A program made the position numbers and the translations under genes. A stretch of 64,000 nucleotides of DNA. It comes from Opitutaceae bacterium. GTDB lineage: Bacteria > Verrucomicrobiota > Verrucomicrobiia > Opitutales > Opitutaceae. Below the pieces are notes generated by a model that had not been told where the DNA came from, did no database searches, and was given only the letters and a program-made list of their open reading frames with translations. The number at the start of each line of letters is the position of its first letter. Within the stretch, counting starts at the first letter, position 1. The stretch spans positions 1 to 64,000 of the forward strand of contig JAUYAK010000107.1 in assembly GCA_030693515.1 (NCBI GenBank), read 5' to 3'. Shown piece after piece: positions 32,233 through 53,491 of this stretch.

Positions 32233-32261
32233 GGAATAGCGCCACCGTCCGCGGCTCGCAT
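32233..32261 (+). promoter_or_regulatory. ECF-type promoter of the GT87-like gene
   Basis: GGAATA (32233-32238), 17-bp spacer, TCGCAT (32256-32261), ending 9 nt before ATG 32271. It is one of nine sites in the window with the same two elements and spacing. Confidence 0.7.
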
Positions 32262-32270
32262 GGCGTGGGC

Positions 32271-33587
32271 ATGGAGGCATCGAACCGCCACGACGACAAC
32301 GAGGGCGGCCCGCCCGCGTGGCGGCTGCATGGGGCGGGCGCGGTCGCCGCGGGGGCTTGGCTCATCCTCGTGTGGCGATCGCACACCGCGGGCGGCGCGA
32401 CCTTGGGCTGGATGCTCGGGGTCGTCGCCGTGGCGTGGGCGTCGCTCGCGTTCGCGTGGTGCGCGTCCGATTCCGGAGGGCGCGGTGGCCGCGTCGTCGC
32501 AGTCTGGGCGTTGGGCTTTCGCCTTGTGGCATTCTTTGCGCAGCCGGTGCTGGAGGATGATCACCACCGGTTCCTGTGGGATGGGCATCGCTTCGCGGTC
32601 ACCGGGAATCCCTATGCGGAGCCGCCGCAGGCGCGATTCGGCGACGAGAGCATCGCGCCCGAATTCCGCGCGGTGCTTGATCGGATCAATCATCCGGATG
32701 TCGCGACGGTCTATGGGCCTGCGACGCAGTGGGCTTTCCGCGCCGCCCACGCGGTCGCGCCGGCGCAGCTCTGGCCTTGGAAACTGATCCTGCTCGGCGC
32801 GGAGCTGGCGCTCGGTGTGTTGCTGTGGCCGGTATTGGGGGCGCGGGGCCGGCTGCTGCTCGCGTGGTGCCCGCTCGCGATCTTCGAGACGGGCTTCAAC
32901 GCCCATCCCGACGCGCTCGCAATCGCGCTGGCTGTTGTGGCGTGGCGAAACAGGGAGCGTGGGTGGGGTGTGGCGGCGGGAGTGGCGCTGGGTGCGGCAA
33001 TCGCGGCCAAGGTCTTCGCGGTCCTGCTCGCGCCGTTCATCCTCTGGCGGCTGGGCGCGCGGGCCTGGATCGCGGCGGTAGGCGCGGGCTTGGCGTGCTA
33101 CGCGCCGTTTTGGTTGCGCGGGAGCGGCGCGGATCTCGCAGGGCTGCGCGCGATGGCGGGGGAGTGGGAGTTCAACTCGAGCGTTTACGCGCTGGCCGCG
33201 GCGGCGACGTCACCGCCGATCGCGCGCGGGGTGTGCGCGGTGGCGTTTGGCGCGATTTGGGCGGGACTTTTCCTGCGTTGGAGAAGGACGTTCGCGCAGC
33301 CTCCGCCGGGCACCTGGATATACGGGGCGTTTCTCCTGCTCTCGGCGACGGCCAACCCGTGGTATGCGCTTTGGCTCTGGCCCTTTGTCGCATTGCGGCC
33401 CTCGGCCACGGGTGTGGCGGTCCTGGCGGCGGTGAGCCTGAGCTACGCGACGGGCCTCAATCTGGGCGATCCCTCGCTCGGGAATTTCGGCCACCCGGCG
33501 TGGCTGCGGCCGGTGGAGTTTGGCGCGATCATGATCGCGGCGGGGTGGGATTGGCGGAGCGCAAAAAAGGCCGCCCGCGAGATGTGA
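32271..33587 (+). CDS. GT87/DUF2029-like membrane mannosyltransferase
   Basis: 438 residues, about ten hydrophobic segments. The first periplasmic loop carries LEDDHHRFLWDGHRF with the paired Asp typical of polyprenyl-phosphate-sugar-dependent GT-C enzymes, and NPYAEPP, INHPDVATVYGPATQ follow as in DUF2029/GT87 proteins. It would add a sugar from a lipid donor on the outer face of the inner membrane. Two upstream in-frame ATGs exist but 32271 sits 9 nt after the -10 element. Its stop codon lies inside the loop of a terminator serving the opposite strand. Confidence 0.8.
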   Translation: MEASNRHDDNEGGPPAWRLHGAGAVAAGAWLILVWRSHTAGGATLGWMLGVVAVAWASLAFAWCASDSGGRGGRVVAVWALGFRLVAFFAQPVLEDDHHRFLWDGHRFAVTGNPYAEPPQARFGDESIAPEFRAVLDRINHPDVATVYGPATQWAFRAAHAVAPAQLWPWKLILLGAELALGVLLWPVLGARGRLLLAWCPLAIFETGFNAHPDALAIALAVVAWRNRERGWGVAAGVALGAAIAAKVFAVLLAPFILWRLGARAWIAAVGAGLACYAPFWLRGSGADLAGLRAMAGEWEFNSSVYALAAAATSPPIARGVCAVAFGAIWAGLFLRWRRTFAQPPPGTWIYGAFLLLSATANPWYALWLWPFVALRPSATGVAVLAAVSLSYATGLNLGDPSLGNFGHPAWLRPVEFGAIMIAAGWDWRSAKKAAREM

Positions 33588-33602
33588 ACCTCGTGGGCGG
33601 CC
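33563..33602 (-). terminator. Intrinsic terminator of the outer-membrane protein gene
   Basis: Arms 33590-33602 and 33569-33581 (GGCCGCCC plus CGAG, one A-C mismatch on the minus strand) are followed by six Ts (33568-33563). The hairpin lies over the last codons and stop of the opposite-strand glycosyltransferase gene. Confidence 0.8.
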
Positions 33603-33625
33603 TTGGTAACACACAACCGAAAGGC

Positions 33626-34477
33626 TCAGAGCCTCAAGGGCAGGCTGATGCTGAGGGAGACGACCTTGGCGCGGCCGGTGTTGCGCAGATCGCCGATGCA
33701 CTTGGCGGCGGTGAGCTGGTAGCTCCGCCCGCCGGCGTCGGTGAACGACAGGCCGCCCTCGATGAACTGCGTGACCTCCTTCACCTGCGGGAACCCGTAG
33801 CTTGTGCCGAAGCCCGGACCGCCGATGTCGCCGCCGCTCAACCCCTGCGACCGCCGGTAGCCTAGATTCACGGTGAACGCGTCGACCTGCTTCGCGACCC
33901 CCACGCTGCCGAAGAGATCGTCGGGCACGCGGTGGTTGCGGTTGCGGTAACCGATCTCGCCATACGCGGCGAAGCCCTCGCCGAGCGATTTTCCGACGGC
34001 GAGTGCGGACTCGAATCCGCTCGCGCGGTCGCCCGGGTTGATCGGCGGGAGGGTGTTCGGGATGTCGTAGTCGCCGTTGATGATCAGGCCGGTCCGATAG
34101 GTGACGGCCGGGCGGTTGTCGGTCTCGGTGAGCAGCGCGTAGCTCAGGCCGAGGCGCGCATCGTCGCGGCCCTTGCGTTTGAAGTTCGCACCGGGCGGAT
34201 TGAATTTCACGGCCGTGTAGCCGATGGCGGCGTCGAGCGCGAGACGCGGGGCGAGGCCGTAGTCGAAGCGGATCGTCTGCGTGCGCTGGGTGATATCGGC
34301 GGGCAGGCTCATGCGGGTGGTGCCCACGTAAAACTCATCGAAGGACTGGTGCGTGTAGATCGGCGTGACGACGAGAACGCCAGGCTCGGCGAGCCAGACG
34401 TTCTGGGCCGTGGCGTGCGAAGCGAAGCCGAGGGAGGCTGCGACGAGGGCGAGGCGGAGGAGGGGAATTTTCTTCAT
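33626..34477 (-). CDS. Outer-membrane beta-barrel protein
   Basis: 283 residues with a signal peptide (LLRLALVAASLGFASHATAQ). The mature part is made of alternating strands ending in aromatic residues, such as TIRFDYGLAPRLALDAAIGY, GRDDARLGLSYAL and AFTVNLGYRR, and finishes with VVSLSISLPLRL, a C-terminal strand suited to BAM-dependent insertion. Family not recognised beyond a transporter/MetA-pathway-like porin fold. It is the second gene of a minus-strand pair, 35 bp after the small exported protein, driven by the divergent promoter at 34894-34922. Confidence 0.75.
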   Translation of the reverse strand: MKKIPLLRLALVAASLGFASHATAQNVWLAEPGVLVVTPIYTHQSFDEFYVGTTRMSLPADITQRTQTIRFDYGLAPRLALDAAIGYTAVKFNPPGANFKRKGRDDARLGLSYALLTETDNRPAVTYRTGLIINGDYDIPNTLPPINPGDRASGFESALAVGKSLGEGFAAYGEIGYRNRNHRVPDDLFGSVGVAKQVDAFTVNLGYRRSQGLSGGDIGGPGFGTSYGFPQVKEVTQFIEGGLSFTDAGGRSYQLTAAKCIGDLRNTGRAKVVSLSISLPLRL

Positions 34478-34512
34478 GGTGAGAATCGTTGGATGGGGAG
34501 GCGGTGCGCGGT

Positions 34513-34857
34513 TCACTTCTTCATGCCAAAGCGCTGCGCCACGAAATACTCCAGGGCGTCGAGCTGCGTGGCGCTGATCTTCCCGGCGAGCGCGACGAGG
34601 TTCTTCATCTTCGCGGCGTCGGCGGGCAGCTTGGCCTGCAGGGCCGTGAGGCGCGGGGTCTGCGCAGCCGCGTCCCCGCCGCCCGCGGTCATGGCAGAGC
34701 CTTCATAGACTTTCTGGCCGAGCGTGTATTTCTCCTGATCCATCTTGGCCGACGCGGCGGCGGGCGGGCGAGGCGGGCGGTTGGAGTAGCTGCCGGAGGC
34801 GAGCGCGGGCGCGGCCGCGAGCAGCGCAGCGCAGACGAGGAAGGATGCTTTTATCAT
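34513..34857 (-). CDS. Small exported protein, cytochrome-c-like without heme motif
   Basis: 114 residues with a signal peptide (about 1-20, ALASGSYSN at the cleavage). The mature part has YTLGQKVYEG and a C-terminal helix pair (LVALAGKISATQLDALEYFVAQRFG) that resemble the ends of class I cytochrome c domains, but no CxxCH is present and the only Cys is in the signal peptide. So it is a periplasmic protein of unknown function, perhaps a heme-less derivative. It leads the pair with the outer-membrane protein and is transcribed divergently from the sigma-factor operon. Confidence 0.7.
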   Translation of the reverse strand: MIKASFLVCAALLAAAPALASGSYSNRPPRPPAAASAKMDQEKYTLGQKVYEGSAMTAGGGDAAAQTPRLTALQAKLPADAAKMKNLVALAGKISATQLDALEYFVAQRFGMKK

Positions 34858-34893
34858 GGAGGGTGGGTTTGGTTGGAGGTTGCGGTTGCGTCG

Positions 34894-34922
34894 ATTTGAT
34901 GGGCCACGCCCGATCCTATTCC
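34894..34922 (-). promoter_or_regulatory. ECF-type promoter of the exported-protein/outer-membrane pair
   Basis: On the minus strand GGAATA (34922-34917), 17-bp spacer, TCAAAT (34899-34894). The start codon is 36 nt further on, so this is the only one of the nine sites that predicts a normal untranslated leader. It lies back to back with the sigma-gene promoter. Confidence 0.65.
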
Positions 34923-34965
34923 ATCGCATCCCGGGGGAAATTTCCGCTCCATCCCGATCCGTTGC

Positions 34966-34994
34966 GGAATAGAAAAGGTTCTCGGCCTTCTCAC
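34966..34994 (+). promoter_or_regulatory. ECF-type promoter of the sigma/anti-sigma/arsM operon
   Basis: GGAATA (34966-34971), 17-bp spacer, TCTCAC (34989-34994), 4 nt before GTG 34999. It implies that the sigma factor activates its own gene. A palindrome GGAAATTTCC (34936-34945) lies between the two divergent promoters and could bind another regulator. Confidence 0.75.
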
Positions 34995-34998
34995 TGGC

Positions 34999-35562
34999 GT
35001 GGACGAAGTGGACTACGAGCAAGCCGTCGCGCTCTATCACGAGGACCTGCACCGGTTCGCGCTGAGCCTCGCGCGCAATCCCGACGATGCGCGCGACCTC
35101 ACCCAGGAGTCCTACTGCCGACTGCTCACCAAGAGCGGCCAGGTGCGCGATCACACCAAGGTGAAGTCGTGGCTCTTCACGACGCTTTACCGCGTCTTTC
35201 TCGGACGGAAGCGTCATGAGAAACGCTTTCCGCATACGGAACTGTCTCTCACCGAACTGGAGCTGCCGGCGCCGGCGACGGATTTTCTGGATCGGATCGA
35301 CGCCAATACCGTGTGGGCCGCACTTGAGCGAATCGACGAGCATCACCGCACGCCGCTCACGCTGTTCTACCTGCAAAGCCTCTCCTACCGCGAGATCGCC
35401 GTCATGCTCGACGTGCCGATCGGCACGGTGATGTCGCGGCTCTCGCGCGCCAAGGCGCAGCTTCGCGCCCTCCTCAAGGAAAACGTCGCGCAGTCCAGTG
35501 CGGACGATACGGAAAAAATCATCTCGCTGCCACCGACCCCGCGCACGGCGCAATCACTATGA
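34999..35562 (+). CDS. ECF-family RNA polymerase sigma factor
   Basis: 187 residues. Region 2: LYHEDLHRFALSLARNPDDARDLTQESYCRLL with the core-binding helix and KSWLFTTLYRVFLGRKRHEKRF for -10 recognition. Region 4: ALERIDEHHRTPLTLFYL, LSYREIAVMLDVPIGTVMSRLSRAK, the helix-turn-helix for the -35 box. There is no region 1 or 3. It starts with GTG 4 nt after its presumed -10 element, so the transcript is probably leaderless. ATG of the anti-sigma gene overlaps its TGA. By position it should recognise the GGAATA-17-TCNNAC/T promoters listed here. Confidence 0.93.
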   Translation: MDEVDYEQAVALYHEDLHRFALSLARNPDDARDLTQESYCRLLTKSGQVRDHTKVKSWLFTTLYRVFLGRKRHEKRFPHTELSLTELELPAPATDFLDRIDANTVWAALERIDEHHRTPLTLFYLQSLSYREIAVMLDVPIGTVMSRLSRAKAQLRALLKENVAQSSADDTEKIISLPPTPRTAQSL

Positions 35563-36296
35563 ACCGCGAGGAAGCCCAATTTATCCTTGGCGCATGCCGG
35601 CCCGACGGGGAGGACGCGCAGGATCCGCAATACCGAGAGGCGCTGGCGCTCGCCGGCCGCGATCCAGTGCTCGCCCGCTGGCTCGCCGAGGAGCGGGCGT
35701 TTGACCGGGCCCTCAGCGCCAAGCTCCGCGCGCGCGCCGTGCCGCCCGATCTGGCGGGGCAGCTCCTGCTCGCGCGGGCGACGGTGCGGCGCCTCCCGCG
35801 CTGGCGCCAGCCGGTGTGGCTGGCCATGGCGGCCGCGCTCGCGCTGTTGCTTGCGGTCGGGGCGCTCTTCCTGCCGCGGGGCGGGGCCGGCGATGAGTTT
35901 GCGGCGTTTCGCACCGCGATGCTTGCGCCCGGACCCGAGTTTGGCGGTCACGCCGATGTGTGGGGACTCGACAACGCCGGCTACCGCACGTGGCTGGCGA
36001 GCCACCGCGGTGATCCGAACTTTGTCCTGCCGCGTGGACTCGCGGACAAAGGCATCTCCGCCTGCAAGGTCGTCGCGTGGCGCGGCCGGCAGGTAACGAT
36101 GCTCTGCGTCAAGTTCGGCGGCCAGCACGTCGATCTCTTCGTCCTCGATGCCGAGGCCATCCCGGGCCACGCGCTGGGCGCGATGCCGGCGATGTTCGCC
36201 GTCGGCGAGGTGAACGCCGCCGCGTGGCTGCGCGAGGGCAAGCTTTACCTCCTGGCCGGAACTGTGCCCGCAACCGAGCTCCGCGCACTCCTCTGA
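35559..36296 (+). CDS. Anti-sigma factor, single-pass membrane protein
   Basis: 245 residues. A cytoplasmic N-terminal part (about 1-85, RDPVLARWLAEERAFDRAL), one membrane helix (about 88-106, WLAMAAALALLLAVGALFLP) and a periplasmic C-terminal domain of about 135 residues containing two cysteines (GISACKVVAW and VTMLCVKFGG). The topology and the 4-bp overlap with the sigma gene identify it as the cognate anti-sigma factor although no zinc HxxxCxxC motif is present. The periplasmic cysteine pair could sense redox state or bind a metal or arsenical; this is inference. Confidence 0.8.
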   Translation: MNREEAQFILGACRPDGEDAQDPQYREALALAGRDPVLARWLAEERAFDRALSAKLRARAVPPDLAGQLLLARATVRRLPRWRQPVWLAMAAALALLLAVGALFLPRGGAGDEFAAFRTAMLAPGPEFGGHADVWGLDNAGYRTWLASHRGDPNFVLPRGLADKGISACKVVAWRGRQVTMLCVKFGGQHVDLFVLDAEAIPGHALGAMPAMFAVGEVNAAAWLREGKLYLLAGTVPATELRALL

Positions 36297-36304
36297 CTTT
36301 GCCC

Positions 36305-37450
36305 ATGCCTGCCGAAACCTCCGTCAAACAACGCTACGCCGCCGCCGCCCAGGCGCCCGAGGCTGCGCTCTGCTGCCCCGTCGAATATGATCGCCGCTAT
36401 CTCGAGGTCATCCCCACCGAGGTGATCGAGAAGGATTACGGCTGCGGCGATCCCTCGCGCTACGTCAAACCCGGCGAGACTGTGCTCGATCTCGGGAGCG
36501 GCACGGGAAAAATCTGCTTCATCGCGGCGCAAGTTGTCGGGCCGCAGGGCCGCGTCATCGGCGTGGACATGACCGACGAGATGCTCGAAGTCGCCCGCCG
36601 CAACGCGCCCATCGTCGCGGAGCGAATCGGCTTTGCCAACGTCGAGTTCCGCAAGGGCCGCATCCAAGACCTCGCGCTCGACCTAGAAAAACTCGATCAC
36701 GAACTGCAAGCCCGACCCATCGCGGACGCCGCCTCGTTTCTCGCCGCCGAAGAACTGGCCGACGACCTGCGTGTGCGCGCTCCACTGGTCGCGAGCGATG
36801 CGATCGATGTCGTGGTCTCCAACTGCGTGCTGAACCTTGTCGAACCGCGCGCGAAACGGATGCTGTTCGAGGAGATTTTTCGCGTCCTGAAAAAAGGCGG
36901 GCGCGCCGTCATTTCCGACATCGTGGCCGATGAGCCCGTGCCGGAAGCGCTGCAGCAAAACCCCGAGTTGTGGAGCGGCTGCATCAGCGGCGCGCTCACG
37001 GAAGAGGATTTTTTGCGGGCGTTCGCCGACGCGGGGTTTTACGGGATTCAGATCCTCAAGCGCGACGCGACGCCGTGGCGCACCGTCGAAGGCATCGAGT
37101 TTCGCTCGGTCACGGTGCAGGCCTTCAAAGGCAAACAAGGTCCGTGCCTGGAGCGCAATCAGGCCGCCATCTATCTCGGGCCGTTCAAGGAAGTGCTCGA
37201 CGACGACGGCCACCGGCTGCAACGCGGTCGCCGCTACGCCGTGTGCGACAAGACCTATCAGCTCTACAGCCAGGAGCCCTACCGCGCGCATTTCGCCCTC
37301 GTCGAACCGCGGCGCGAGATTCCGCTGGCCGAGGCGAAACCCTTCAATTGCGCGGGCGCGGCGCTGCGGCACCCGAAGGAAACCAAGGGCGACGATTACG
37401 ACGCGACAACTGCCGGGGGTGTCGTGTGCCGGGACGGTGGCTGTTGTTGA
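36305..37450 (+). CDS. arsM: ArsM-like SAM methyltransferase
   Basis: 381 residues. SAM motif I VLDLGSGTGKICFIAAQ (about 60), GVDMTDEMLEVARRNA, VVSNCVLNLVEP and the post-core GGRAVISDI are those of arsenite methyltransferases (ArsM/AS3MT). Cysteines that could bind As(III) occur in ALCCPVEY near the N-terminus, in SNCVLNL and in a terminal CRDGGCC. Family knowledge: stepwise methylation of arsenite, and dimethylarsenite is the substrate of ArsS. It lies 8 bp after the anti-sigma gene. The extra C-terminal domain of about 110 residues is longer than in the minimal enzyme. Confidence 0.85.
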   Translation: MPAETSVKQRYAAAAQAPEAALCCPVEYDRRYLEVIPTEVIEKDYGCGDPSRYVKPGETVLDLGSGTGKICFIAAQVVGPQGRVIGVDMTDEMLEVARRNAPIVAERIGFANVEFRKGRIQDLALDLEKLDHELQARPIADAASFLAAEELADDLRVRAPLVASDAIDVVVSNCVLNLVEPRAKRMLFEEIFRVLKKGGRAVISDIVADEPVPEALQQNPELWSGCISGALTEEDFLRAFADAGFYGIQILKRDATPWRTVEGIEFRSVTVQAFKGKQGPCLERNQAAIYLGPFKEVLDDDGHRLQRGRRYAVCDKTYQLYSQEPYRAHFALVEPRREIPLAEAKPFNCAGAALRHPKETKGDDYDATTAGGVVCRDGGCC

Positions 37451-37555
37451 TGAGATTAGCCAGCAAGTCGCGCGGGCGCTCAAGGGTTCCGCCGACTGTG
37501 CTTTTTCGGTGACGACATCCGGCGTGTGGCTGTGAATGGCGCTATCGCCCTCACG

Positions 37556-38860
37556 ATGCGCGCGCGCCTCATCCTCATGCTCAAGTTTCCGCGCTCCGGC
37601 GCGGTCAAGACCCGGCTGATCCCGGCGCTCGGCGCGGGGCGGGCCTGCGCGCTGCATCGCGCGCTGGTGGCGGCCACGCTCGCGACCGTCAGGGAGTTTG
37701 CGGCCACCGCCGCCGTGGCGGTCGAAGTGCGCATCACGGGCTCGCCCGATGACCAGGCTGCGCGGGACTGGCTGGGCGTCGAGGGGACGATTCGGGAACA
37801 GGGCGAGGGCGATCTCGGCGCGCGGATGGAGCGCGCGATCGCGGAGGCGTTTGCCGAGGGCATGGGGCAGGCCGTGGTCATCGGAGGTGATTGCCCGGAG
37901 ATCCGGCCGCACCATCTCGCGGCGGCGTTTGGCGCGCTCGCTGAACGCGAGGTGGTCTTGGGACCGGCGGCGGATGGCGGTTACTACCTCATCGGCCTCC
38001 GTCGGCCTGTGCCGGCGTTGTTTCGCGGCATCGCATGGGGCGGGGTGGAGGTGCGGGCGCAGACTCTTGCAGCGGCACTGACGCACGGTGTGTCCGTCGC
38101 GCAGTTGGAGGAGTTGCGCGATGTCGATACGCCGGACGACCTCGCGGTGTGGGCGGCGACACCCGCGGCGCGCGAGTTCGGGCAGGGCGGGGTGTCAGTC
38201 GTTATTCCTACGCTCAACGAGGAAGAGGCGCTGCCTGCGACGTTGGCGGCAGTCCGGGCGGGCGGGGCCGCTGAGATCATCGTGGTGGATGGCGGCAGCC
38301 GGGATAGGACACGGGCGGTGGCTCGGGCGCATGATGCCATCGCGCTCAGCGCGGAAGGCGGGCGGGCGGCGCAGTTGAACGCGGGGGCGGCTGCGGCGGT
38401 CGGCGAGTTCCTGTTGTTTCTGCATGCGGACACGCAGCCGCCGCCGGGCTATGCCGAAATCGTGCGCGCCACACTCGCTCGCCCCGGCGTCGCGGCCGGT
38501 GCGTTCGCCTTCGCAATTGAGGGGGAGTTTTCCGGGCGGCGCCTCATTGAGGCCGGCACCAACTGGCGCGCGCGCCACCTGGGCCTGCCTTACGGTGACC
38601 AGGGCTTGTTTCTCCGGCGCGATACGTTCGAGGGCATCGGCGGCTTCCCTGCGTTGCCGATCATGGAGGACTACGCGCTGGTGCGGCGGTTGAAATCCCG
38701 CGGGGACATCGTGGTCACGGCCGAGGCGGCGTGCACCTCGGGCCGCCGCTGGCGCGAGCGGGGCGCGATGCACACGATGGTGGTCAATCAGATGGTGCTC
38801 GCCGGCTATGCGCTCGGGGTTGCGCCCGCGCGGCTCGCGCGGTGGTATCGCGGGGAATAA
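37556..38860 (+). CDS. Fusion of rSAM/selenodomain-associated transferases 1 and 2
   Basis: 434 residues. Residues 1-205 match transferase 1 (TIGR04282-type nucleotidyl/glycosyltransferase: LMLKFPRSGAVKTRL, VVIGGDCPEIRP, LGPAADGGYYLIGL, DVDTPDDL). Residues 215-434 match transferase 2 (TIGR04283-type family 2 glycosyltransferase: VSVVIPTLNEEEALPATLAA, VVDGGSRDRT, FLHADTQPPPGY, GDQGLFLRRDTFE, MEDYALVRRLK). These two families usually are separate genes beside the radical SAM partner. ATG 37556 is preferred over the GTG 30 bp upstream. Presumably it supplies the sugar part of a modified metabolite. Confidence 0.88.
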   Translation: MRARLILMLKFPRSGAVKTRLIPALGAGRACALHRALVAATLATVREFAATAAVAVEVRITGSPDDQAARDWLGVEGTIREQGEGDLGARMERAIAEAFAEGMGQAVVIGGDCPEIRPHHLAAAFGALAEREVVLGPAADGGYYLIGLRRPVPALFRGIAWGGVEVRAQTLAAALTHGVSVAQLEELRDVDTPDDLAVWAATPAAREFGQGGVSVVIPTLNEEEALPATLAAVRAGGAAEIIVVDGGSRDRTRAVARAHDAIALSAEGGRAAQLNAGAAAAVGEFLLFLHADTQPPPGYAEIVRATLARPGVAAGAFAFAIEGEFSGRRLIEAGTNWRARHLGLPYGDQGLFLRRDTFEGIGGFPALPIMEDYALVRRLKSRGDIVVTAEAACTSGRRWRERGAMHTMVVNQMVLAGYALGVAPARLARWYRGE

Positions 38861-38882
38861 TTTCCATGCCCCGAGTTCTTAC
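38854..38882 (+). promoter_or_regulatory. ECF-type promoter of arsS
   Basis: GGAATA (38854-38859) overlaps the TAA stop of the fused transferase gene; a 17-bp spacer and TCTTAC (38877-38882) follow, 8 nt before ATG 38891. So arsS can be made apart from the upstream operon. Confidence 0.7.
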
Positions 38883-38890
38883 CGGCAGCG

Positions 38891-39835: not shown

Positions 39836-39850
39836 CATTCTTTTTCCCTC

Positions 39851-44897: not shown

Positions 44898-44926
44898 GGA
44901 ATACTGGCGCTGCATAGGACTCCCAT
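44898..44926 (+). promoter_or_regulatory. ECF-type promoter of the 134-residue protein gene
   Basis: GGAATA (44898-44903), 17-bp spacer, TCCCAT (44921-44926), 5 nt before ATG 44932. Confidence 0.7.
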
Positions 44927-44931
44927 CGATC

Positions 44932-47003: not shown

Positions 47004-47010
47004 GGCGGGC

Positions 47011-48075
47011 CTAGTATTTCCACGAACCGGCGAGGCGCAGGGAGCGCCAGGTTCGATCACGGTAGAGGTTTTGGAAAAAATCCGTCGCGGGATTTGTGGC
47101 CGCGAAATCGCCCCGGGCCACGCCGAGCGAGATGCGCCAACCCAGTCGCTCGCCGTCGTGGCGCGCGCCGAGTTCGGTGCGCCGCGAGCGCAGGGCGGGC
47201 GCGGCGCTCGTGAAGAGAAGCGCGTTCTCGATCTCGCCGGTGTCGCGGTAGCCGTGGGCGCCCGCAAACAGCGCCACGGCCCCGGTCGCGGCAAACTCCA
47301 GCTCGAGCCCGCCGTAGCGGGCGCGAAAATCCGGCCGCTCCAGGCTGCCGCCCACATCCGCACGCACGATCCAACGCTCGCCGATGGCGTGCCGCGCGGA
47401 GGCCTCGGCACTCCAGCGCGGCTTGCGCCCCGAAGTGCCGGCGCCGCGCAGCTCGACGCGGGTGCGCAGGCGCCGTGTGACGATATGCTCGAAGGAGAGT
47501 GTGGCGGCGTCGGTCACCAGCGTCTCGGCTCCGCGGTTCAAGCCATCGAAGTCGATCTCGTAGCCCGGGGCCACCTCGTCCTGAGTGCGGCTGTAGCCAA
47601 ACTGCGCAAAGCCGGAACCGGCTCGGTATTCCCAGCGGGCTCCACCTGAGAACGAGAACCCTCGCGGCGTCGTCCGGCGGTAGCCGGCGAGGCCGGCGAA
47701 GCGCTGGAGGAAATATTCGTCGAGCCACAGCGTGCGGTAGTTGTCGTGGCCGATCCGCAGGCCCGCACCGCCCAGCAACTCCAGCCGGTCGCCCGCCCGG
47801 TGTCGCAATGCGCCTTGCGCAGAAACACTCGACTCCCGCCGTTCGACGAATCGGCCGAGGAAATCGAACGACACGGGCGCGTAGTCGATCGCGACGGTGC
47901 CTAGGCCCACAGTCAGTGCCGTCTCGGTGCGCCCCTGTTGAAACCGTAGGGTGTCGCTGCCCTGGGTGATCATGACGTCAGGCGCGTGCAGCAGCTCGGC
48001 GCCGAATTCAAGGCTGCGTTCGGCCGCGGCCGCACCGCTCGCACTCAACACCCAGGCTAAGGCGCGGCGCATCAT
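47011..48075 (-). CDS. DUF3570 outer-membrane beta-barrel protein
   Basis: 354 residues with a short signal peptide (RRALAWVLSASGAAAA). The mature part begins ERSLEFGAELLHAPDVMITQGSD-like and consists of amphipathic strands ending ...RSLRLAGSWKY, a C-terminal aromatic suited to barrel insertion. DUF3570 proteins are regularly encoded next to DUF4266 lipoproteins and thioredoxin-like proteins, as here. ATG 48075 overlaps the TGA of the DUF4266 gene (ATGA). Confidence 0.8.
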   Translation of the reverse strand: MMRRALAWVLSASGAAAAERSLEFGAELLHAPDVMITQGSDTLRFQQGRTETALTVGLGTVAIDYAPVSFDFLGRFVERRESSVSAQGALRHRAGDRLELLGGAGLRIGHDNYRTLWLDEYFLQRFAGLAGYRRTTPRGFSFSGGARWEYRAGSGFAQFGYSRTQDEVAPGYEIDFDGLNRGAETLVTDAATLSFEHIVTRRLRTRVELRGAGTSGRKPRWSAEASARHAIGERWIVRADVGGSLERPDFRARYGGLELEFAATGAVALFAGAHGYRDTGEIENALLFTSAAPALRSRRTELGARHDGERLGWRISLGVARGDFAATNPATDFFQNLYRDRTWRSLRLAGSWKY

Positions 48076-48290
48076 CGGCAGGCCGTGCAACCCGCCGCCT
48101 GCGCGCCGCCTGCCGCCCGGCCGGGCTCAAGTTGCGCGACCAGTGCGCCGCGGGTGGCGAGCACCGGTGAATCCGAAAATATCATGCCTGGGCGCGAGAC
48201 GAGGCGCTGCTGCACGATCGGCACGCCCGTGCAGCCGGAAATGAGCAGTGCGGCCGCAAGGCCGGAGGCGAGACGGTGAAAGGCAATCAT
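48072..48290 (-). CDS. DUF4266 lipoprotein
   Basis: 72 residues. A lipoprotein signal with lipobox LISGC (Cys20), RLVSRPGMIFSD and a Cys-containing end (AAGGAQAAGCTACR) in place of the Gly/Cys-rich tail of the family. ATG 48290 overlaps the TGA of the upstream glycosyltransferase by 4 bp and is also preceded by its own promoter at 48303-48331. Usually found with DUF3570, perhaps in an outer-membrane redox or export device. Confidence 0.82.
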   Translation of the reverse strand: MIAFHRLASGLAAALLISGCTGVPIVQQRLVSRPGMIFSDSPVLATRGALVAQLEPGRAAGGAQAAGCTACR

Positions 48291-49078
48291 GGGCGACACC
48301 CCGTGAGAGGATCGGCCGGCGCGGGTATTCCCCGTGGCGTGGCGTCTTCCCGCTGCCGCCGGGCGCGCTCGAGTTGGAGCCGGCCGACCATTGCAAGGAT
48401 GCCCCAGCCTGCGCGCGCGATGCCACGGAGGTTGCCCGAGATTTTCGATTCGCCCGCGCGGCGCGGATGAAACTGAACCGGCACTTCCGCGATCCGCACG
48501 CCGCGCTCCACCGCGCGCACCTGCATCTCGACGTTCCAGCCGAACGCCCGGTCCGCGAGCCGAAGCTCCTCGAATGTGCTCCGCCGAATCGCCCGCAATG
48601 AGGCCATGTCGCGAAACCTGCGCCCCCAGCCGAGCGCGATCAACGCGCAGGCGAGGGCGTTGCCGAAACGTTGCGTCGGTGTCAGCCGCGCCCGCGAGGC
48701 CACCAGCGTCACCCGTTCCCCGAGGATGAGTTCCGCCCCGTCGTCGATGGCGCGCTGGAACGCCTCCGCCGCGCCATCGTCGAGCCGATCACTGCCATCG
48801 GCCGAGCTGAAGATGATCCACTCGATCCGATCCGGCAGGCTTTGCGTGCCGCTCCATGCGGCCGCGCCGTAGCCGCGCAGCGGCTCGAGCACGACCTCGG
48901 CTCCGGCGGCTGCTGCGATCGCACCGGTGGCGTCGGTGCTGCCGTTGTCCACGACGCGGACGAGCCCGGCGCCGTGCGCGCGCCATTCGCCCACCGTCGA
49001 GGCGACGCACGCCTGCTCGTTCAGTGCGGGGATGACGACCACACTTCGTCCGAGGAAAGGTGCAAGGGAAGGGTTCAC
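48287..49078 (-). CDS. Family 2 glycosyltransferase, DPM1-like
   Basis: 263 residues. GT-A signature VVVIPALNEQACVASTV, RVVDNGSTDATGAIA, EPLRGYGAAAWSG, IIFSSADGSDRL (DxD-like), FRDMASLRAIRRSTFEEL and VPVQFHPRRAGESKISG, as in dolichol/polyprenyl-phosphate sugar transferases. It may make the lipid-linked sugar used by the GT87-like protein. GTG 49078 lies 4 nt after its -10 element. Its stop overlaps the DUF4266 start, so it heads the operon. Confidence 0.87.
   Translation of the reverse strand: MNPSLAPFLGRSVVVIPALNEQACVASTVGEWRAHGAGLVRVVDNGSTDATGAIAAAAGAEVVLEPLRGYGAAAWSGTQSLPDRIEWIIFSSADGSDRLDDGAAEAFQRAIDDGAELILGERVTLVASRARLTPTQRFGNALACALIALGWGRRFRDMASLRAIRRSTFEELRLADRAFGWNVEMQVRAVERGVRIAEVPVQFHPRRAGESKISGNLRGIARAGWGILAMVGRLQLERARRQREDATPRGIPAPADPLTGCRP
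48303..48331 (-). promoter_or_regulatory. ECF-type promoter of the DUF4266-DUF3570-redoxin genes
   Basis: On the minus strand GGAATA (48331-48326), 17-bp spacer, TCTCAC (48308-48303), 12 nt before ATG 48290. It lies inside the 3' end of the glycosyltransferase gene. Confidence 0.65.
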
Positions 49079-49082
49079 GCTT

Positions 49083-49111
49083 GTCCGATGCGCGGTCGCG
49101 GACGTTATTCC
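49083..49111 (-). promoter_or_regulatory. ECF-type promoter of the GT2-DUF4266-DUF3570-redoxin operon
   Basis: On the minus strand GGAATA (49111-49106), 17-bp spacer, TCGGAC (49088-49083), 4 nt before GTG 49078. Its -35 box is separated by only 3 bp from that of the divergent DUF547 operon. Confidence 0.72.
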
Positions 49112-49114
49112 GTT

Positions 49115-49143
49115 GGAATAATACGCGCGCGTCGCGCTCCTAC
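49115..49143 (+). promoter_or_regulatory. ECF-type promoter of the DUF547-TVP38-reductase operon
   Basis: GGAATA (49115-49120), 17-bp spacer, TCCTAC (49138-49143), 7 nt before ATG 49151. The two -35 boxes form the dyad TTATTCC-GTT-GGAATAA. Confidence 0.72.
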
Positions 49144-49150
49144 TCCCTGC

Positions 49151-49921
49151 ATGACCTCGATGCTTTCCACCGGCCTCCGCGCGGCGCTCTATCTTGGCTT
49201 GGCCGCCACGCTCAGCGCCTTTGACCACTCGCACGCGGCGTTCGACGGCGTCCTCAAGCGGGACGTGCGCGACGGGCTGGTGGACTACTCCGCCCTGAAG
49301 GCCGCCCCCCGCGCGCTCGACGACTATCTGGCCACGCTCGCCGCGGTGCCTGAGGCGGAGTTCAAAGCGTGGAGTGAACCGCAGCGTTTCGCCTTTCTCA
49401 TCAATCTCTACAACGCCGCCACGCTCCGCCTTATCCTGGATCATTACCCGTTGAAGAGTATTCGCAGCATCGGCTGGCTGCCGGGCGCCGCGTGGAAGAA
49501 GGAGGGCGTCGCGCTCTTCGGCAGCAAAGTCTCCCTCGACCACGTCGAGCATGGCATCATCCGCAAGGAGTATCCCGATGCCCGCGCCCACTTCGCGCTC
49601 GTCTGCGCCGCGCTCGGCTGCCCGCCGCTGCGCAGCGAGGCCTTTGTGGCTGAACGCCTCGACGCGCAGCTCACTGATCAAGGCCGCGTGTTTCTCGGCG
49701 ATCCGGCCAAGAATCGCGTCGAGGCCGCGACGCGCACGGTGCATCTCTCCGCCATCTTCAAGTGGTTCGCCGGCGACTTCGAGGCCTCGGCCGGCACGGT
49801 GGTGAAATTCGCCACGCCGTTTTTCCCGGAGGCGGCGCGCGCGGCGCTGGCGGCCGGCGGGGATTTCAAGATCGCCTACACCGACTACGACTGGTCCCTC
49901 AACGAGCAGGCGAAACGATGA
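49151..49921 (+). CDS. DUF547 exported protein
   Basis: 256 residues with a signal-like N-terminus (about 1-25). DUF547 motifs: FLINLYNAATLRLILDHYP, HVEHGIIRKEYPDARAHFALVCAALGCPPL and GRVFLGDPAKNRV, then HLSAIFKWFAGDF. The Cys-Cys-less fold with conserved His/Glu recalls cysteine-protease-like domains but has no proven activity. It is translationally coupled (ATGA) to the TVP38 gene. DUF547, TVP38 and mercuric-reductase-like genes often travel together with the rSAM/selenodomain genes. Confidence 0.85.
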   Translation: MTSMLSTGLRAALYLGLAATLSAFDHSHAAFDGVLKRDVRDGLVDYSALKAAPRALDDYLATLAAVPEAEFKAWSEPQRFAFLINLYNAATLRLILDHYPLKSIRSIGWLPGAAWKKEGVALFGSKVSLDHVEHGIIRKEYPDARAHFALVCAALGCPPLRSEAFVAERLDAQLTDQGRVFLGDPAKNRVEAATRTVHLSAIFKWFAGDFEASAGTVVKFATPFFPEAARAALAAGGDFKIAYTDYDWSLNEQAKR

Positions 49922-50601
49922 GCCGCACCCGCATCGTGCTGCTCGTGCTGGCGGTCGCGGCCTTGGCCACGGTGCTCTTTGTTTTCGATGCGCGCGCGCT
50001 CCTGCGCTCGGCGCTCGATTTCATCCAGGGACTCGGGGTGTGGGGTCCGGTGATTTTCGTGGCGCTCTATATCGTGGCCACGGTGCTGTTCGTGCCGGGC
50101 TCGGCGCTCACGCTGGGCGCGGGGGCGCTCTTTGGCGTGACGCTCGGATCGGTGCTGGTCTCGATCGGTGCGACCCTCGGCGCCACCGCGGCGTTTCTCG
50201 TCGGACGTTATCTCGCGCGGGATTGGGTGGGCGCAAAAATCGAGGGCAACGCATCCTTCGCCGCCATCGACCGCGCGGTCGCCGCCGAGGGCTGGAAGAT
50301 CGTCGGGCTCACGCGGCTTTCGCCGGTGTTTCCGTTTTCGCTGCTGAACTATGCCTTTGGCCTCACGCGCGTCTCGTTGCGCGACTACGTGCTCGCCTCG
50401 TGGATCGGCATGATGCCGGGCACGGTGATGTATGTTTACCTCGGCTCCCTCGCGCGGGTGGCCGGCGAACGCACCCGCACCCCGGGTGAGTGGGCGCTCT
50501 ATGGCGTAGGACTGCTGGCCACGATTGTGGTCACCGTCTTTGTCACCCGCCTCGCGCGCGCCGCGCTCGCCAAGCGCGCGCCAACCAACCCCGCCGCATG
50601 A
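49918..50601 (+). CDS. TVP38/TMEM64-family (DedA-superfamily) membrane protein
   Basis: 227 residues, five to six hydrophobic segments. Family signature VPGSALTLGAGALFG, then GLTRLSPVFPFSLLNYAFGLTRVSL and GTVMYVYLGS. DedA/VTT proteins move lipids between membrane leaflets. ATG overlaps the DUF547 stop and its own TGA overlaps the reductase ATG, so the three are tightly coupled. Confidence 0.9.
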   Translation: MSRTRIVLLVLAVAALATVLFVFDARALLRSALDFIQGLGVWGPVIFVALYIVATVLFVPGSALTLGAGALFGVTLGSVLVSIGATLGATAAFLVGRYLARDWVGAKIEGNASFAAIDRAVAAEGWKIVGLTRLSPVFPFSLLNYAFGLTRVSLRDYVLASWIGMMPGTVMYVYLGSLARVAGERTRTPGEWALYGVGLLATIVVTVFVTRLARAALAKRAPTNPAA

Positions 50602-52124
50602 CCGCCGATTCCGCTCCGCTCCAGCCTTGGGACACGCACAACCGCCGGTTGCATGCGCACGTCGCGCCGGGTGACTGGAAAAACCCAGTGCCCGCCGGGC
50701 GCTACAATCTCGTCGTCATCGGCGGCGGCACGGCCGGTCTGGTGTCCGCGGCCGGGGCGGCCGGTCTCGGGGCCAAGGTGGCGCTCATTGAGCGTCACCT
50801 GCTCGGCGGCGACTGCCTGAACGTCGGCTGCGTGCCGTCCAAGGCGCTCATCCGCGCGGCGCGGGCCGCGGCCGAGGCGCGGCACGCGGGGACGTTTGGC
50901 GTCCGCCTATCGGGTGAGATCACCGTGGATTTTCCGGCGGTCATGGAGCGGATGCGCCGGCTTCGCGCCGACTTGAGCCCGCACGATTCGGCGGCGCGGT
51001 TTCGCGAGTTGGGGGTCGATGTTTTTCTGGGTGGAGGCAAGTTTACTGGCGGCGACACCGTCGAGGTCGGCGGGCAGACGCTGCGGTTTTCCCGGGCCGT
51101 CATCGCCACGGGTGCACGCGCCTCGGCCCCGCCCATCACCGGGCTGGCGGACGTGCCGTATCTGACCAACGAGACGCTCTTCTCGCTGACGACGCTGCCG
51201 CGCCGGCTGCTCGTGGTCGGGGCCGGCCCCATCGGCTGTGAGATGGCGCAGACCTTCGCCCGCTTCGGATCGGAGGTGACGCTCGTCGAATCGGCGGCTG
51301 GTATTCTGCCGCGGGAGGACCGCGAGGCGGCGGGCATCCTGCGCGCCGCGCTCGAGCGCGACGGGGTGCGCCTGCTCTGCGATGGCAAGGATCTGGCGGT
51401 GGCGCCCGCTCCCGGAGGTGGTGTGCGCTGGACGCTCGCCGCCAGCGCGCGACACTACGAGGAGACGGCCGATCAGCTTTTGATCGCGGTGGGCCGTGCG
51501 CCCAACGTCGAGGCTCTCGGTCTCGATGTGGCGGGAGTCGCGTTTGGCAAGAAGGGCGTGGAAGTGAACGATCGTCTGCAGACCACGAACTCGCGGATCT
51601 TTGCATGCGGCGACGTGTGCTCGCGTTTCCAATTCACCCATGCGGCGGACTTCATGGCGCGCATCGTGATTCAAAACGCACTCTTCTTTGGCCGTAAACG
51701 CGCCAGCGCGCTCACGATTCCGTGGGCCACCTACACTTCGCCCGAGGTGGCGCACGTCGGTCTCACGCCCGCCGAGGCGGAGAAACAAGGGGTGGCCATC
51801 GACACCTTCACCCAGCCGCTCTCCACAGTGGACCGGGCGATGCTCGACGGCGAGGACGAGGGCTTCGTGCGCGTCCACGTGCGCCAAGGCACGGACCGCA
51901 TTGTCGGCGCCACCATCGTCGCCACCCACGCGGGCGACATGATCGGCGAAGTTTCGCTGGCGATGACGAGCGGGCTTGGCCTCGGCGCGATCGGCGCGGC
52001 CATCCATCCCTATCCGACGCAGGCCGAGGCCATCCGCAAAGTCGGCGACCTCTACAACCGCACGCGGCTCACGCCGATAGTGAAGCGTCTCTTCGCGAAG
52101 TGGCTCGCGTGGCAGCGGCGGTAA
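50598..52124 (+). CDS. Mercuric-reductase-like FAD disulfide oxidoreductase
   Basis: 508 residues. FAD site VVIGGGTAGLVSAAGAAGLG, redox pair GGDCLNVGCVPSK (Cys73, Cys78), NAD(P) site LLVVGAGPIGCEMAQTFARFG, FACGDVCSRFQFTHAADFMA and the dimerisation domain with HPYPTQAEA, the active-site His-Glu-like segment. There is no N-terminal HMA domain and no C-terminal Cys pair, so it is not a true MerA. It may reduce a thiol carrier or an arsenical. Its last 56 bp overlap the convergent transferase gene. Confidence 0.88.
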   Translation: MTADSAPLQPWDTHNRRLHAHVAPGDWKNPVPAGRYNLVVIGGGTAGLVSAAGAAGLGAKVALIERHLLGGDCLNVGCVPSKALIRAARAAAEARHAGTFGVRLSGEITVDFPAVMERMRRLRADLSPHDSAARFRELGVDVFLGGGKFTGGDTVEVGGQTLRFSRAVIATGARASAPPITGLADVPYLTNETLFSLTTLPRRLLVVGAGPIGCEMAQTFARFGSEVTLVESAAGILPREDREAAGILRAALERDGVRLLCDGKDLAVAPAPGGGVRWTLAASARHYEETADQLLIAVGRAPNVEALGLDVAGVAFGKKGVEVNDRLQTTNSRIFACGDVCSRFQFTHAADFMARIVIQNALFFGRKRASALTIPWATYTSPEVAHVGLTPAEAEKQGVAIDTFTQPLSTVDRAMLDGEDEGFVRVHVRQGTDRIVGATIVATHAGDMIGEVSLAMTSGLGLGAIGAAIHPYPTQAEAIRKVGDLYNRTRLTPIVKRLFAKWLAWQRR

Positions 52125-52791
52125 CGCCGGCACGATACTCCGCCGCCAGCACATGGGGCGGAGTGCCACGGAGAAACCGCAGCAGCAGCCGGGCGTTGAG
52201 CCATTGCTGGCGCAGCGCGCCGTGGCGGCGAAAGCGCCGCGCCGACGTCGTGACGCACGCGGGAAAGGACCACACGCGAGTGACGCGGCGCGCGCGCCGC
52301 AGCAGCTCCACATCCTCGAAGAGGGGCCAGGCGGGAAACCCGCCGAGCTCGGTGTAGCAATCGCGCCGCACCACGATCGCTTGATCGCCGAAGCGGGTGA
52401 ACACGGAATCAATCCGGGTGAGCCACGCGCAAGCGCCGAGGAACGGTCCGGCCTGATCGAAGGCGAGACGGAAGGTTCCGATGCGCACCTCGGGCCGTGC
52501 GAAGGCCCGCGCCAGGATGGGACCGGCGTTGGGCGGCAGCCAGGTGTCGGCGTGCAGGAACACCAGCGGATCGCCGCGGGCCACGGCGGCGCCGGCGGCG
52601 AGTTGCAGGCCGCGGCCACGCGGTGCGGCCACGACGACGGCTCCGGCGATCGTGGCGGCGGTGGCCGTGCGGTCGTCGCTGCCGCCGTCGGCGACGATGA
52701 TTTCCGCCTCGGGCAGGGCGGCGCGCACGCGACCAATCGTCTCCGCGATGGCGGCCGCTTCGTTCAGCGTGGGGATGATGACCGAGATCAC
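52069..52791 (-). CDS. rSAM/selenodomain-associated transferase 2 (GT2), second copy
   Basis: 240 residues. VISVIIPTLNEAAAIAETIG, VADGGSDDRTAT, AAPRGRGLQLAAGAAVA, FLHADTWLPP, FGDQAIVVRRDCYTELGGFP and LFEDVELLRRARR match TIGR04283-type enzymes, the same family as the C-terminal half of the fusion at 37556. GTG 52791 overlaps the TGA of the DUF3047 gene. The 3' end overlaps the opposite reductase gene by 56 bp. Confidence 0.87.
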   Translation of the reverse strand: MISVIIPTLNEAAAIAETIGRVRAALPEAEIIVADGGSDDRTATAATIAGAVVVAAPRGRGLQLAAGAAVARGDPLVFLHADTWLPPNAGPILARAFARPEVRIGTFRLAFDQAGPFLGACAWLTRIDSVFTRFGDQAIVVRRDCYTELGGFPAWPLFEDVELLRRARRVTRVWSFPACVTTSARRFRRHGALRQQWLNARLLLRFLRGTPPHVLAAEYRAGVTAAATRATSRRDASLSA

Positions 52792-53456
52792 GGCTTCGAT
52801 GGCGCAGGCCCCGCCGTGAGCTGGAGATCGGCGAACCAAGCCTCGGCTTCGCGACCGGTATTGTCGGTGTCCACCAGCACCGCGACTGCGGTGATCCGAG
52901 TCGGAGCCTCGCCGAAGCAGCGCCGGTAATCGGCAATCACATCGCGCTCCTCGCGTTGCCACCGGCCGGCTTCGTCCGTGCCCGAGCGCGCGACGATCAT
53001 CATGACGTTTTTCGTGTAGGGGTTGGGAAACTCCGCTCCGATCGGCTCGTGCGCCGCCCACACGTAGTTGATCGCGCGGGTGCGCAGCGGAATGATGGAT
53101 TGTTCGAAGACCACGAACACCCGCGCGGCGAAATCATCCCCGGCGCGTTCCCGCTCGCGGGTGTTGCCGGTGAGCGGAGCGGCGACCTTCCAGCGCCACG
53201 AGAGTCGCGCAGCCTCCGGTGCGATGATCGTCTGGGTCCGATGCAGGCCGGCGTTGGCATCGCGGGCGGTCGCATGCAGCACGGGCACTCCGCCCTCGCG
53301 CACGACCTCGTAGCGCGTGGGTTTGGTGAGAAAACTCTGTTCGCGCCATTGGAGGCGCCAGCCCTCCGCAAAACCGTCGAAGAGATCACCGCCACGCACG
53401 CCACCGGCGGCCGCCGCGGCGCAGCAAAGCAAAAGCAGGTGGGTATGGCGGGGCAT
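52788..53456 (-). CDS. DUF3047 exported protein
   Basis: 222 residues with a signal peptide (LLLLCCAAAAAGGVRG). DUF3047 marks: LSWRWKVAAPL, DDFAARVFVVFE, INYVWAAHEPIGAEFPNPYT and VAVLVDTDNTGREAEAWFADL, a jelly-roll-like carbohydrate-binding appearance. Function unknown; it recurs near the rSAM/selenodomain cluster. It leads the two-gene operon with transferase 2. Confidence 0.87.
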   Translation of the reverse strand: MPRHTHLLLLCCAAAAAGGVRGGDLFDGFAEGWRLQWREQSFLTKPTRYEVVREGGVPVLHATARDANAGLHRTQTIIAPEAARLSWRWKVAAPLTGNTRERERAGDDFAARVFVVFEQSIIPLRTRAINYVWAAHEPIGAEFPNPYTKNVMMIVARSGTDEAGRWQREERDVIADYRRCFGEAPTRITAVAVLVDTDNTGREAEAWFADLQLTAGPAPSKP

Positions 53457-53461
53457 CCGTT

Positions 53462-53491
53462 GTCAGAGTCGCGCGCCCTCCCTCGTATTCC
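53462..53491 (-). promoter_or_regulatory. ECF-type promoter of the DUF3047-transferase 2 operon
   Basis: On the minus strand GGAATA (53491-53486), 18-bp spacer, TCTGAC (53467-53462), 5 nt before ATG 53456. It is the only site with an 18-bp spacer. Confidence 0.68.

Follow-up and report, generated by a model that had tools for sequence, protein, structure and literature searches.

In this study, which was based on a 64,000-nucleotide stretch of DNA from an Opitutaceae bacterium (assembly GCA_030693515.1, contig JAUYAK010000107.1, positions 1 to 64,000, referred to here as the window; its genome is G000 among our handles for genomes, G, and loci, L), we analysed nine copies of the two-part motif GGAATA-N17/18-TCNNAY that lie around a cluster of arsenosugar-type genes. 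It is very probable that these nine sites are promoters of the extracytoplasmic function (ECF) sigma factor encoded at 34999-35562, a relative of the ECF26 class, and that this factor is controlled by a thiol-responsive anti-sigma factor and has a mostly leaderless output. Judged from the sequences, the system would be a putative thiol-sensing stress regulon of a known kind that has recruited an arsenosugar-type cluster, in which the clade, the domain found in the anti-sigma factor, the geometry of leaderless starts and the branch into arsenic genes are apparently new. The sequence-only reading that preceded this work had proposed an ECF sigma regulon, which stood, but it had overlooked the leaderless geometry, the anti-sigma factor and its cysteine pair, the resemblance to ECF26 and the wider regulon.

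Nine sites and their counterparts in relatives

The pattern GGAATA-N16-18-TCNNAY was scanned in the window, which has a G+C content of 66.7%, and in the 6.65-Mb genome, with the reversed pattern as the control. The nine sites that had been proposed earlier were recovered letter for letter, with the same coordinates and strands, and with a spacer of 17 bp in eight and of 18 bp in one. Their number exceeds random density: 100 dinucleotide shuffles of the window gave a mean of 0.09 matches and a maximum of one, and none of them reached nine. The whole genome holds 27 matches (13 + 14) compared with five of the reversed pattern, and nine of the 27 fall within 32233-53491, a 21-kb stretch. A matrix that was trained on 56 promoters of sigma genes from other loci, and in which the -35 element is partly preset because the training sites were chosen with GGAAT[AG], picked exactly these nine sites (one of them additionally in a second spacing) and nothing in the reversed window. 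Fourteen GGAATA hexamers occur in the window, nine of which have a -10 partner; the three partnerless hexamers that had been listed earlier are indeed orphans, but two others, 39189(+) and 38203(-), had been missed.

A start codon lies 4-36 nt downstream of every site, which agrees with the earlier statement that each stands directly before a gene, but two of the sites overlap upstream coding sequence. The site at 34966-34994 (+), which the sequence-only reading had already placed before the sigma gene, is followed after 4 nt by the GTG of this gene and is the candidate autoregulatory promoter. The other eight are ECF26-like promoters. The site at 32233-32261 (+) precedes an ATG by 9 nt, and the orthologous gene of G003, whose genome is complete and belongs to another genus, is likewise preceded by a site. 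At 34894-34922 (-), the ATG is 36 nt downstream (35 nt in the G003 counterpart), and this gene would not be leaderless. The site at 38854-38882 (+) overlaps the stop of the upstream glycosyltransferase gene and is followed after 8 nt by the ATG of arsS, and the one at 48303-48331 (-) lies inside the 3' end of the family 2 glycosyltransferase (GT2) gene 48287-49078, with an ATG 12 nt (or a GTG 3 nt) downstream. The sites at 44898-44926 (+) and 53462-53491 (-), the latter with the 18-bp spacer, both leave 5 nt to an ATG. Finally, 49083-49111 (-), with a GTG after 4 nt, and 49115-49143 (+), with an ATG after 7 nt, stand back to back. Within 49083-49143 the divergent -35 elements are 3 bp apart, a gap that is identical in G003; with the two -35 elements placed in this way, two holoenzymes would probably be unable to bind together.

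At least 504 relatives of the window sigma factor were found in named genomes, and the best 80 were kept; by their titles, these are from Verrucomicrobiota or Kiritimatiellae, save two labelled only as "bacterium" and two that are seemingly mislabelled. The latter, L207 and L209, are entered as a Klebsiella pneumoniae MAG and as Blastochloris sp., respectively, and carry a sigma factor of the verrucomicrobial type; both titles look wrong. Using the regular expression GGAAT[AG]-N16-18-[TC]CNNAN, a site was found before the sigma gene in 65 of the 80 named loci (reversed control, 1/80), and the 80 sigma neighbourhoods (1.13 Mb) together contained 109 sites compared with two reversed ones. Among 30 loci of the family with the anti-sigma factor, an adjoining ECF frame was present in 29, and 24 of these 29 had a site before that frame when a relaxed -10 and spacers of up to 19 were allowed; this set and the set of 80 overlap in at least L185, L214, L252 and L255. 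Orthologous genes also share the sites. G003 has sites upstream of the membrane protein (63% identical) and in two divergent intergenic regions, the one shared by the small secreted protein and the sigma gene and the one shared by GT2 and DUF547; both divergent-promoter gaps, 43 bp and 3 bp, are the same as in the window. In G149, from a third genus, 11 sites lie in 40 kb around ArsS and 25 in the genome, compared with two reversed. These comparisons showed that the sites are non-random and are conserved before the sigma gene in most of the related loci and before several shared targets in a relative, which upholds both the regulon reading and the expectation of conservation upstream of orthologues. 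A second dense local regulon was observed in G149 (L170 and L171, C125:12000-51900); its neighbouring genes partly differ, and one looks CBS-domain-like by eye.

The sigma factor, its anti-sigma factor and the start-codon geometry

The -35 sequence of the ECF26 consensus, GGAATA, is present in the window and in the related loci. According to the accessible text of PMC6180224, it is the cross-species -35 element of ECF26, and mapped promoters of Sinorhizobium meliloti read GGAATA..TCTTAT, GGAATA..TCTCAC and GGAATA..TCTGAC. We re-located the rpoE6 gene and two of these printed promoters in pSymA. Across 56 promoters from Verrucomicrobiota, T (91%) C (100%) is preceded by C in 79%, whereas the rhizobial sites in the accessible text have G or GT before TC; of the "GT" in the cross-species -10 element of ECF26, the T is therefore shared and the G is not, which is why we use the names ECF26-like and ECF26-related rather than ECF26. 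In a tree of 43 sequences, which included Escherichia coli RpoE, FecI, 23 ECF factors of the window's own genome and few named references, the window sigma factor, the verrucomicrobial ones and a Photobacterium relative formed a clade with a support of 99/98. The enclosing clade of 18 rows (99/98) adds RpoE6, two Ruegeria and one Pantoea sigma factor, with RpoE, FecI and the 23 own-genome factors outside it; the genome has 78 matches to TIGR02937, 67 of them over the cut-off, as a count of rows in which a few are fragments of one gene. The window sigma factor is 30.5% identical to RpoE6, and the top NCBIfam model of each of the two is NF009164, under the cut-off in both cases. The window sigma factor thus groups with RpoE6, and its promoter resembles the ECF26 type of Sinorhizobium; with so few named references in the tree, it may be either a sister or a member of ECF26. 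The sigma factor of L081, on a Pantoea plasmid, also groups with RpoE6; at 4292-7199 of this locus, genes for a catalase-family peroxidase, a cytochrome b, the sigma factor and an anti-sigma factor follow GGAATA-N17-TCTTAT.

As far as the accessible parts of PMC6180224 and PMC3511301 describe them, RpoE1, RpoE4 and RpoE6 of S. meliloti share with our system autoregulation and the GGAATA -35, with mapped promoters of the kind GGAATA..TCTTAT and GGAATA..TCTGAC. A further likeness is the sigma gene followed by that of a transmembrane (TM) anti-sigma factor with a periplasmic domain, the window topology being read from a model, and we also counted as a likeness that the sulfite dehydrogenase SorT is among the rhizobial targets. 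In contrast, here the anti-sigma factor is DUF3379-like, with a periplasmic domain that probably resembles the C-terminal domain of RseB, the targets include Msr, bufferin-type and ArsM/ArsS genes, and the start codon lies at or beside the expected transcription start.

The anti-sigma factor is encoded at 35559-36296, and its only Pfam match is DUF3379, just under the cut-off. An AlphaFold 2 model (50-row alignment, mean pLDDT 91, pTM 0.59) predicts helices at 3-75, a hydrophobic helix at 85-104 that we read as the TM segment and an alpha/beta domain behind it, in which C169 and C183 are on adjacent strands (166-174 and 177-186). All 30 homologues from the family have the two cysteines, as do 67 of the 79 aligned rows of the wider set, the window included. 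In Foldseek, nine of the top ten rows were RseB and MucB ranked 11 and 24, with E values of 3e-3 and weaker and a TMq of 0.28. In VIA-align, the top six rows were all RseB or MucB (Z 7.9-8.6, 88-99 residues, root-mean-square deviation 2.9-3.9; next 5.7); since a best Z of 7-8 is common for this program, the periplasmic domain of the modelled protein likely, though not certainly, has a fold like that of the RseB/MucB C-terminal domain. The likeness to the RseA/RseB and MucA/MucB pairs that control sigma-E lies in this predicted domain; unlike in those pairs, it is part of the anti-sigma factor's own chain, carries a conserved cysteine pair and is 9-11% identical. No match to the anti-sigma factor was found on plasmids at E<=0.01, and the accessible content of a paper on class I anti-sigma factors mentions neither DUF3379 nor Verrucomicrobia.

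Sigma-F/NrsF of Caulobacter appears to be the nearest working model. In the accessible text of PMC3511200, NrsF is a membrane anti-sigma factor with two conserved cysteines that are needed for normal control, and the system responds to chromium and to cadmium, but showed no response to the oxidants that were tested there. Genes for YedY (MsrP family), DUF2282, DUF692, DUF2063 and DoxX in that regulon were counted as a likeness, which was drawn without a comparison of the promoters. The differences are that NrsF is a DUF1109 protein with six TM segments, compared with one TM segment and an RseB-like domain here, that the regulon table in the same text has no ArsM or ArsS, and that the promoter here is ECF26-like. 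An anti-sigma factor of the NrsF type was not supported, as Pfam gave DUF3379 only and the model has one long hydrophobic helix; the system was therefore not filed under sigma-F/NrsF.

For control of the sigma factor, we infer membrane sequestration, release by a thiol-reactive signal and initiation on the start codon. The anti-sigma factor would hold the sigma factor at the inner membrane, with its N-terminal helices in the cytoplasm, one TM segment and the RseB-C-like domain with the cysteine pair in the periplasm. A thiol-reactive periplasmic signal, such as an oxidant (for example, hypochlorous acid) or thiophilic As(III), Cu or Cd, may alter the cysteine pair and free the sigma factor. 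The holoenzyme would then bind GGAATA-N17/18-TCNNAY and initiate about 5 nt after the -10 element, on or beside the start codon, giving mostly leaderless transcripts in an organism whose sampled genes are without Shine-Dalgarno sequences. The predicted output comprises the sigma/anti-sigma/ArsM operon, ArsS, the glycosyltransferases, the DUF547-VTT-FAD-oxidoreductase operon, DUF3047 and envelope proteins and, elsewhere in the genome, MsrA and MsrP.

The leaderless geometry is suggested by the spacing. A gene-opening ATG or GTG follows the -10 element after 4-9 nt at seven of the nine sites; such a start follows 47 of the 426 TCNNAY hexamers in the window (11%), which gives a binomial probability of 6e-6 for seven of nine. 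In a wider set of 56 promoters with ATG, GTG or TTG within 25 nt, the offset was 4-6 nt in 33. The S. meliloti promoters as printed in the accessible text of PMC6180224, where the bold type is lost, seem by our own reading to stop with the base at which transcription begins; some have a lower-case last base, which marks a start found by two methods, and in the four that were counted the distance from the hexamer is 4-5 nt. If transcription begins some 5 nt past the hexamer, leaders of 0-4 nt are expected; most of the regulon transcripts, including those of the seven genes in the window, should therefore be leaderless on this sequence criterion. At the MsrA sites that were found in the family, the start was at 4-8 nt in six of seven. 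A Shine-Dalgarno match of at least four bases within 22 nt was found at none of the 16 hand-picked valid starts of other window genes and in one of the nine site genes (44932), where it is located inside the promoter. The 16 starts span 29000-59300, and the genome may be largely independent of Shine-Dalgarno sequences; the listing of organisms in which these are scarce in the accessible text of PMC10783764 includes Akkermansia and Verrucomicrobia bacterium IMCC26134. Leaderless starts are thus in keeping with this organism and need not be peculiar to the regulon.

Extent of the regulon and its link with arsenic genes

The regulon had been described as local. This did not hold, since MsrA, MsrP and a second sigma gene elsewhere in the same genome also carry the site, and a purely local regulon was rejected. 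Among the 18 matches outside the window, about five precede a plausible start codon, namely that of MsrP (L005), a DinB-like gene (L018), the second sigma gene on C85 (L020), a small secreted protein (L025) or MsrA (L026), at distances of 12, 10, 5, 18 and 4 nt, respectively. At four others (L001, L007, L019 and L021), we judged the start codon seen within 20 nt to be doubtful, and the remaining nine have none within this distance. NCBIfam models named the MsrP of L005 and the MsrA of L026 and, in G003, identified MsrA (L084), MsrB (L100) and, under the cut-off, a ResA/TlpA-like protein (L090) and a BufA2-type bufferin (L092) behind a site. An HvfX/DoxX-type protein of G004 (L075; under the NCBIfam cut-off, over that of Pfam DoxX) is also preceded by a site. 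In this locus (9284-13658, two sites), the sigma and anti-sigma genes are directly downstream of a bufferin-type operon that encodes a BufA2-like precursor (under the cut-off), an MNIO protein (PF05114), a third protein that is DUF2063-like by position and DoxX. The accessible part of an article on the MNIO landscape reports sigma factors in Buf1 clusters and not in Buf2 (PMC12452194).

Target genes in the family were scanned with an expression that additionally allows GGAACA, a final A and spacers of up to 19. A site was found upstream of MsrP in 10 of 30 loci (30 of 48 matches), of MsrA in seven of 30 (30 of more than 150 matches) and, the window's own gene being counted, of ArsS in five of 17 and of DUF3047 in two of 11; the reversed control was 0 in each case and the dnaN control 0/30. 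In G096, the DUF3047 site and the sigma genes are on different contigs.

ArsS was found in 17 of 150 genomes of the family, and in seven of them (G000, G003, G042, G043, G058, G096 and G149) a match to the anti-sigma factor lies within about 8 kb. ArsM is close behind the anti-sigma factor in G003, G043, G096 and G149 and also in L186, L187, L188, L189, L193 and L247, which are records of Verrucomicrobiales or Verrucomicrobiota. A tblastn search of the 80 named loci (up to 10 kb each way) gave ArsM in seven and ArsS in six, and relatives of the sigma factor, anti-sigma factor, ArsM-like protein, glycosyltransferase fusion, DUF547, VTT, DUF3047 and redoxin proteins occur together in L206 from Kiritimatiellae. 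ArsS was absent from six further genomes of the genus to which the window belongs, and the cluster is thus patchy. The searchable literature, which leaves out most subscription papers, yielded no case of arsenosugar-type genes under the control of an ECF sigma factor; in the accessible text of a Cupriavidus paper touching on ECF sigma and arsM topics, arsM was not RpoD-dependent. To that extent, the earlier remark that such shared control had not been seen described still stands, but the promoter itself resembles the ECF26 class described in the accessible text of PMC6180224.

The nine sites may be real promoters that are used, chiefly or in part, by a different sigma factor of the same clade, so that the cluster would be shared rather than self-contained; we regard this as possible but rather unlikely. 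The candidate is the second sigma/anti-sigma pair at G000:C85:13947-15251 (L063), which has its own GGAATA-N17-TCCCAC promoter with the start codon 5 nt downstream, and a precedent is provided by the overlapping targets of RpoE1 and RpoE4 in S. meliloti (accessible text of PMC3511301). However, the cluster surrounds its own sigma gene, and the orthologous arrangement is conserved in G003. We similarly see a minor chance that the regulon is mainly a response to oxidants (reactive chlorine, methionine oxidation) and that the "arsenosugar" genes make a product without arsenic, for example, an envelope glycolipid. The site can be carried by MsrA, MsrB and MsrP, the window ArsM scores under the AsSugarArsM cut-off (NF038099, 145.8 compared with 400 bits), and several targets are glycosyltransferases, VTT or envelope proteins; on the other hand, ArsS, TIGR04282 and TIGR04283 are over their cut-offs, and ArsM is close behind the anti-sigma factor in many loci. 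That the nine closely spaced copies are a composition artefact or a mobile repeat was rejected as having a negligible probability, because the flanks and spacers differ in every copy, the sites are conserved at orthologous places, 0.09 matches were expected by chance and the reversed controls, including those in the 80 sigma neighbourhoods, were near zero.

Several observations weigh against the reading of the nine sites as promoters of the window sigma factor with a thiol-responsive anti-sigma factor and leaderless output. As the C85 sigma factor has the same kind of promoter, assigning the sites to the window sigma factor is not unique. Under the expressions used, the site is absent at 15 of 80 sigma, 20 of 30 MsrP, 12 of 17 ArsS, 23 of 30 MsrA and nine of 11 DUF3047 loci, which suggests that membership of the regulon turns over fast; a strict tie between the site and ArsS was rejected on the same count. 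Only about five of the 18 matches elsewhere in the genome precede a plausible start codon, and a comparison by eye showed no clear association between the MsrP sites and the presence of the sigma factor. Unlike in the window, ArsS in G003 has no site of its own, and in G096 the sigma, anti-sigma, ArsM and ArsS genes stand in a row of 19 kb with no strict site and a TCAGAA variant before ArsS. An anti-sigma match near ArsS is missing in 10 of the 17 genomes, of which three, with contigs under 13 kb (G032, G036 and G070), cannot tell; these genes thus frequently occur apart from the regulon. Foldseek gave a weak match to RseB, and 12 of 79 rows lack the full cysteine pair, as does Photobacterium, whose relative (43%, no strict site in its 24-kb region) keeps a DUF3379-like anti-sigma factor with one of the two cysteines only. 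Finally, the sites at 34894 (36 nt) and 48303 (12 nt, or GTG at 3) are not leaderless, and at the MsrP sites of relatives the start lies within 9 nt in one of ten, the rest leaving 12-60 nt.

Regulation by the window sigma factor still appears to explain the sites best. A broader view, which we hold tentatively and with somewhat less than even confidence, is that of a Verrucomicrobiota-wide ECF system with an RseB-like thiol sensor within the anti-sigma factor and, the -10 elements lying immediately before the start codon, leaderless stress mRNAs. Such a system would unite, in one envelope thiol-stress regulon, the repair of methionine sulfoxide with bufferin metallophores and, in several lineages, also with the methylation of arsenic and the formation of arsenosugars. 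A dedicated sigma factor with a defined promoter offers a direct handle, as its sites can be counted, mutated and mapped. Moreover, the anti-sigma factor points to a candidate thiol sensor in the periplasm, through which metal(loid) stress may be connected with oxidant stress, and the leaderless geometry would make these stress mRNAs a natural collection in which to study how translation proceeds when a ribosome-binding site is lacking.

Genes of the cluster

Downstream of the sigma gene (34999-35562, +; assigned by profile matches and the tree to the ECF26-related, mostly verrucomicrobial clade) and the anti-sigma gene (35559-36296, +), an ArsM-type methyltransferase is encoded at 36305-37450 (+). 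Its best models, NF040538 and NF008823, are both under the cut-off, as is AsSugarArsM; the ArsM assignment of the sequence-only reading is thus supported as a type only, but ArsS (38891-39835, +), a radical SAM protein, clearly exceeds the cut-off of TIGR04167 (426.7 compared with 300 bits). Between them lies a fusion of the "arsenosugar biosynthesis" glycosyltransferases TIGR04282 and TIGR04283 (37556-38860, +), with both over the cut-off. The likeness to the arsenosugar proteins of NCBIfam therefore consists of ArsS, TIGR04282 and TIGR04283, all over the cut-off in the window; the differences are the fusion and an ArsM that is not the AsSugarArsM equivalog. The name "arsenosugar" for the cluster is accordingly provisional, as it rests on these models. 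Downstream of ArsS, an AhpC/TSA-type redoxin is encoded at 39851-40396 (+), and its relatives in G043 and G140 have their own site.

In the second half of the cluster, DUF547 (49151-49921), VTT/TVP38 (49918-50601) and an FAD-containing oxidoreductase (50598-52124) are encoded on the plus strand (49151-52124), an order that is kept in G003. The last of these had been labelled mercuric-reductase-like, which was not sustained: it scores 381.5 against the MerA model TIGR02053 (cut-off 454.45) and 812 against NF004991 for FAD-containing oxidoreductases (cut-off 620). Family matches also identified the GT2 protein (48287-49078, -) and, within 52069-53456 (-), DUF3047 (52788-53456) and a TIGR04283 glycosyltransferase (52069-52791). 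The DUF3570 and DUF4266 labels given earlier to 47011-48090 and 48072-48290 were not supported either, as neither product had a Pfam match at E<=3; by eye, this unit (47011-48290, -) encodes a beta-barrel-like protein and a small lipoprotein-like protein, respectively, without a family match, and in G140 a site also precedes relatives of the two.

The remaining site genes have no family match. The membrane protein at 32271-33587 (+), which looks glycosyltransferase-like by eye, has no Pfam or NCBIfam match and has the 63%-identical orthologue in G003 mentioned above. The two-gene unit at 33626-34857 (-) encodes, by eye, a small secreted protein (34513-34857) and an outer-membrane-like protein (33626-34477), which are 62% and 68% identical in G003, and a 134-aa protein with CxxC is encoded at 44932-45336 (+). 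Additionally, in L192, L197 and L207 (sites at 9911, 8086 and 9911, minus strand), a site stands 12 nt before a gene for a conserved 295-aa protein near the sigma gene.

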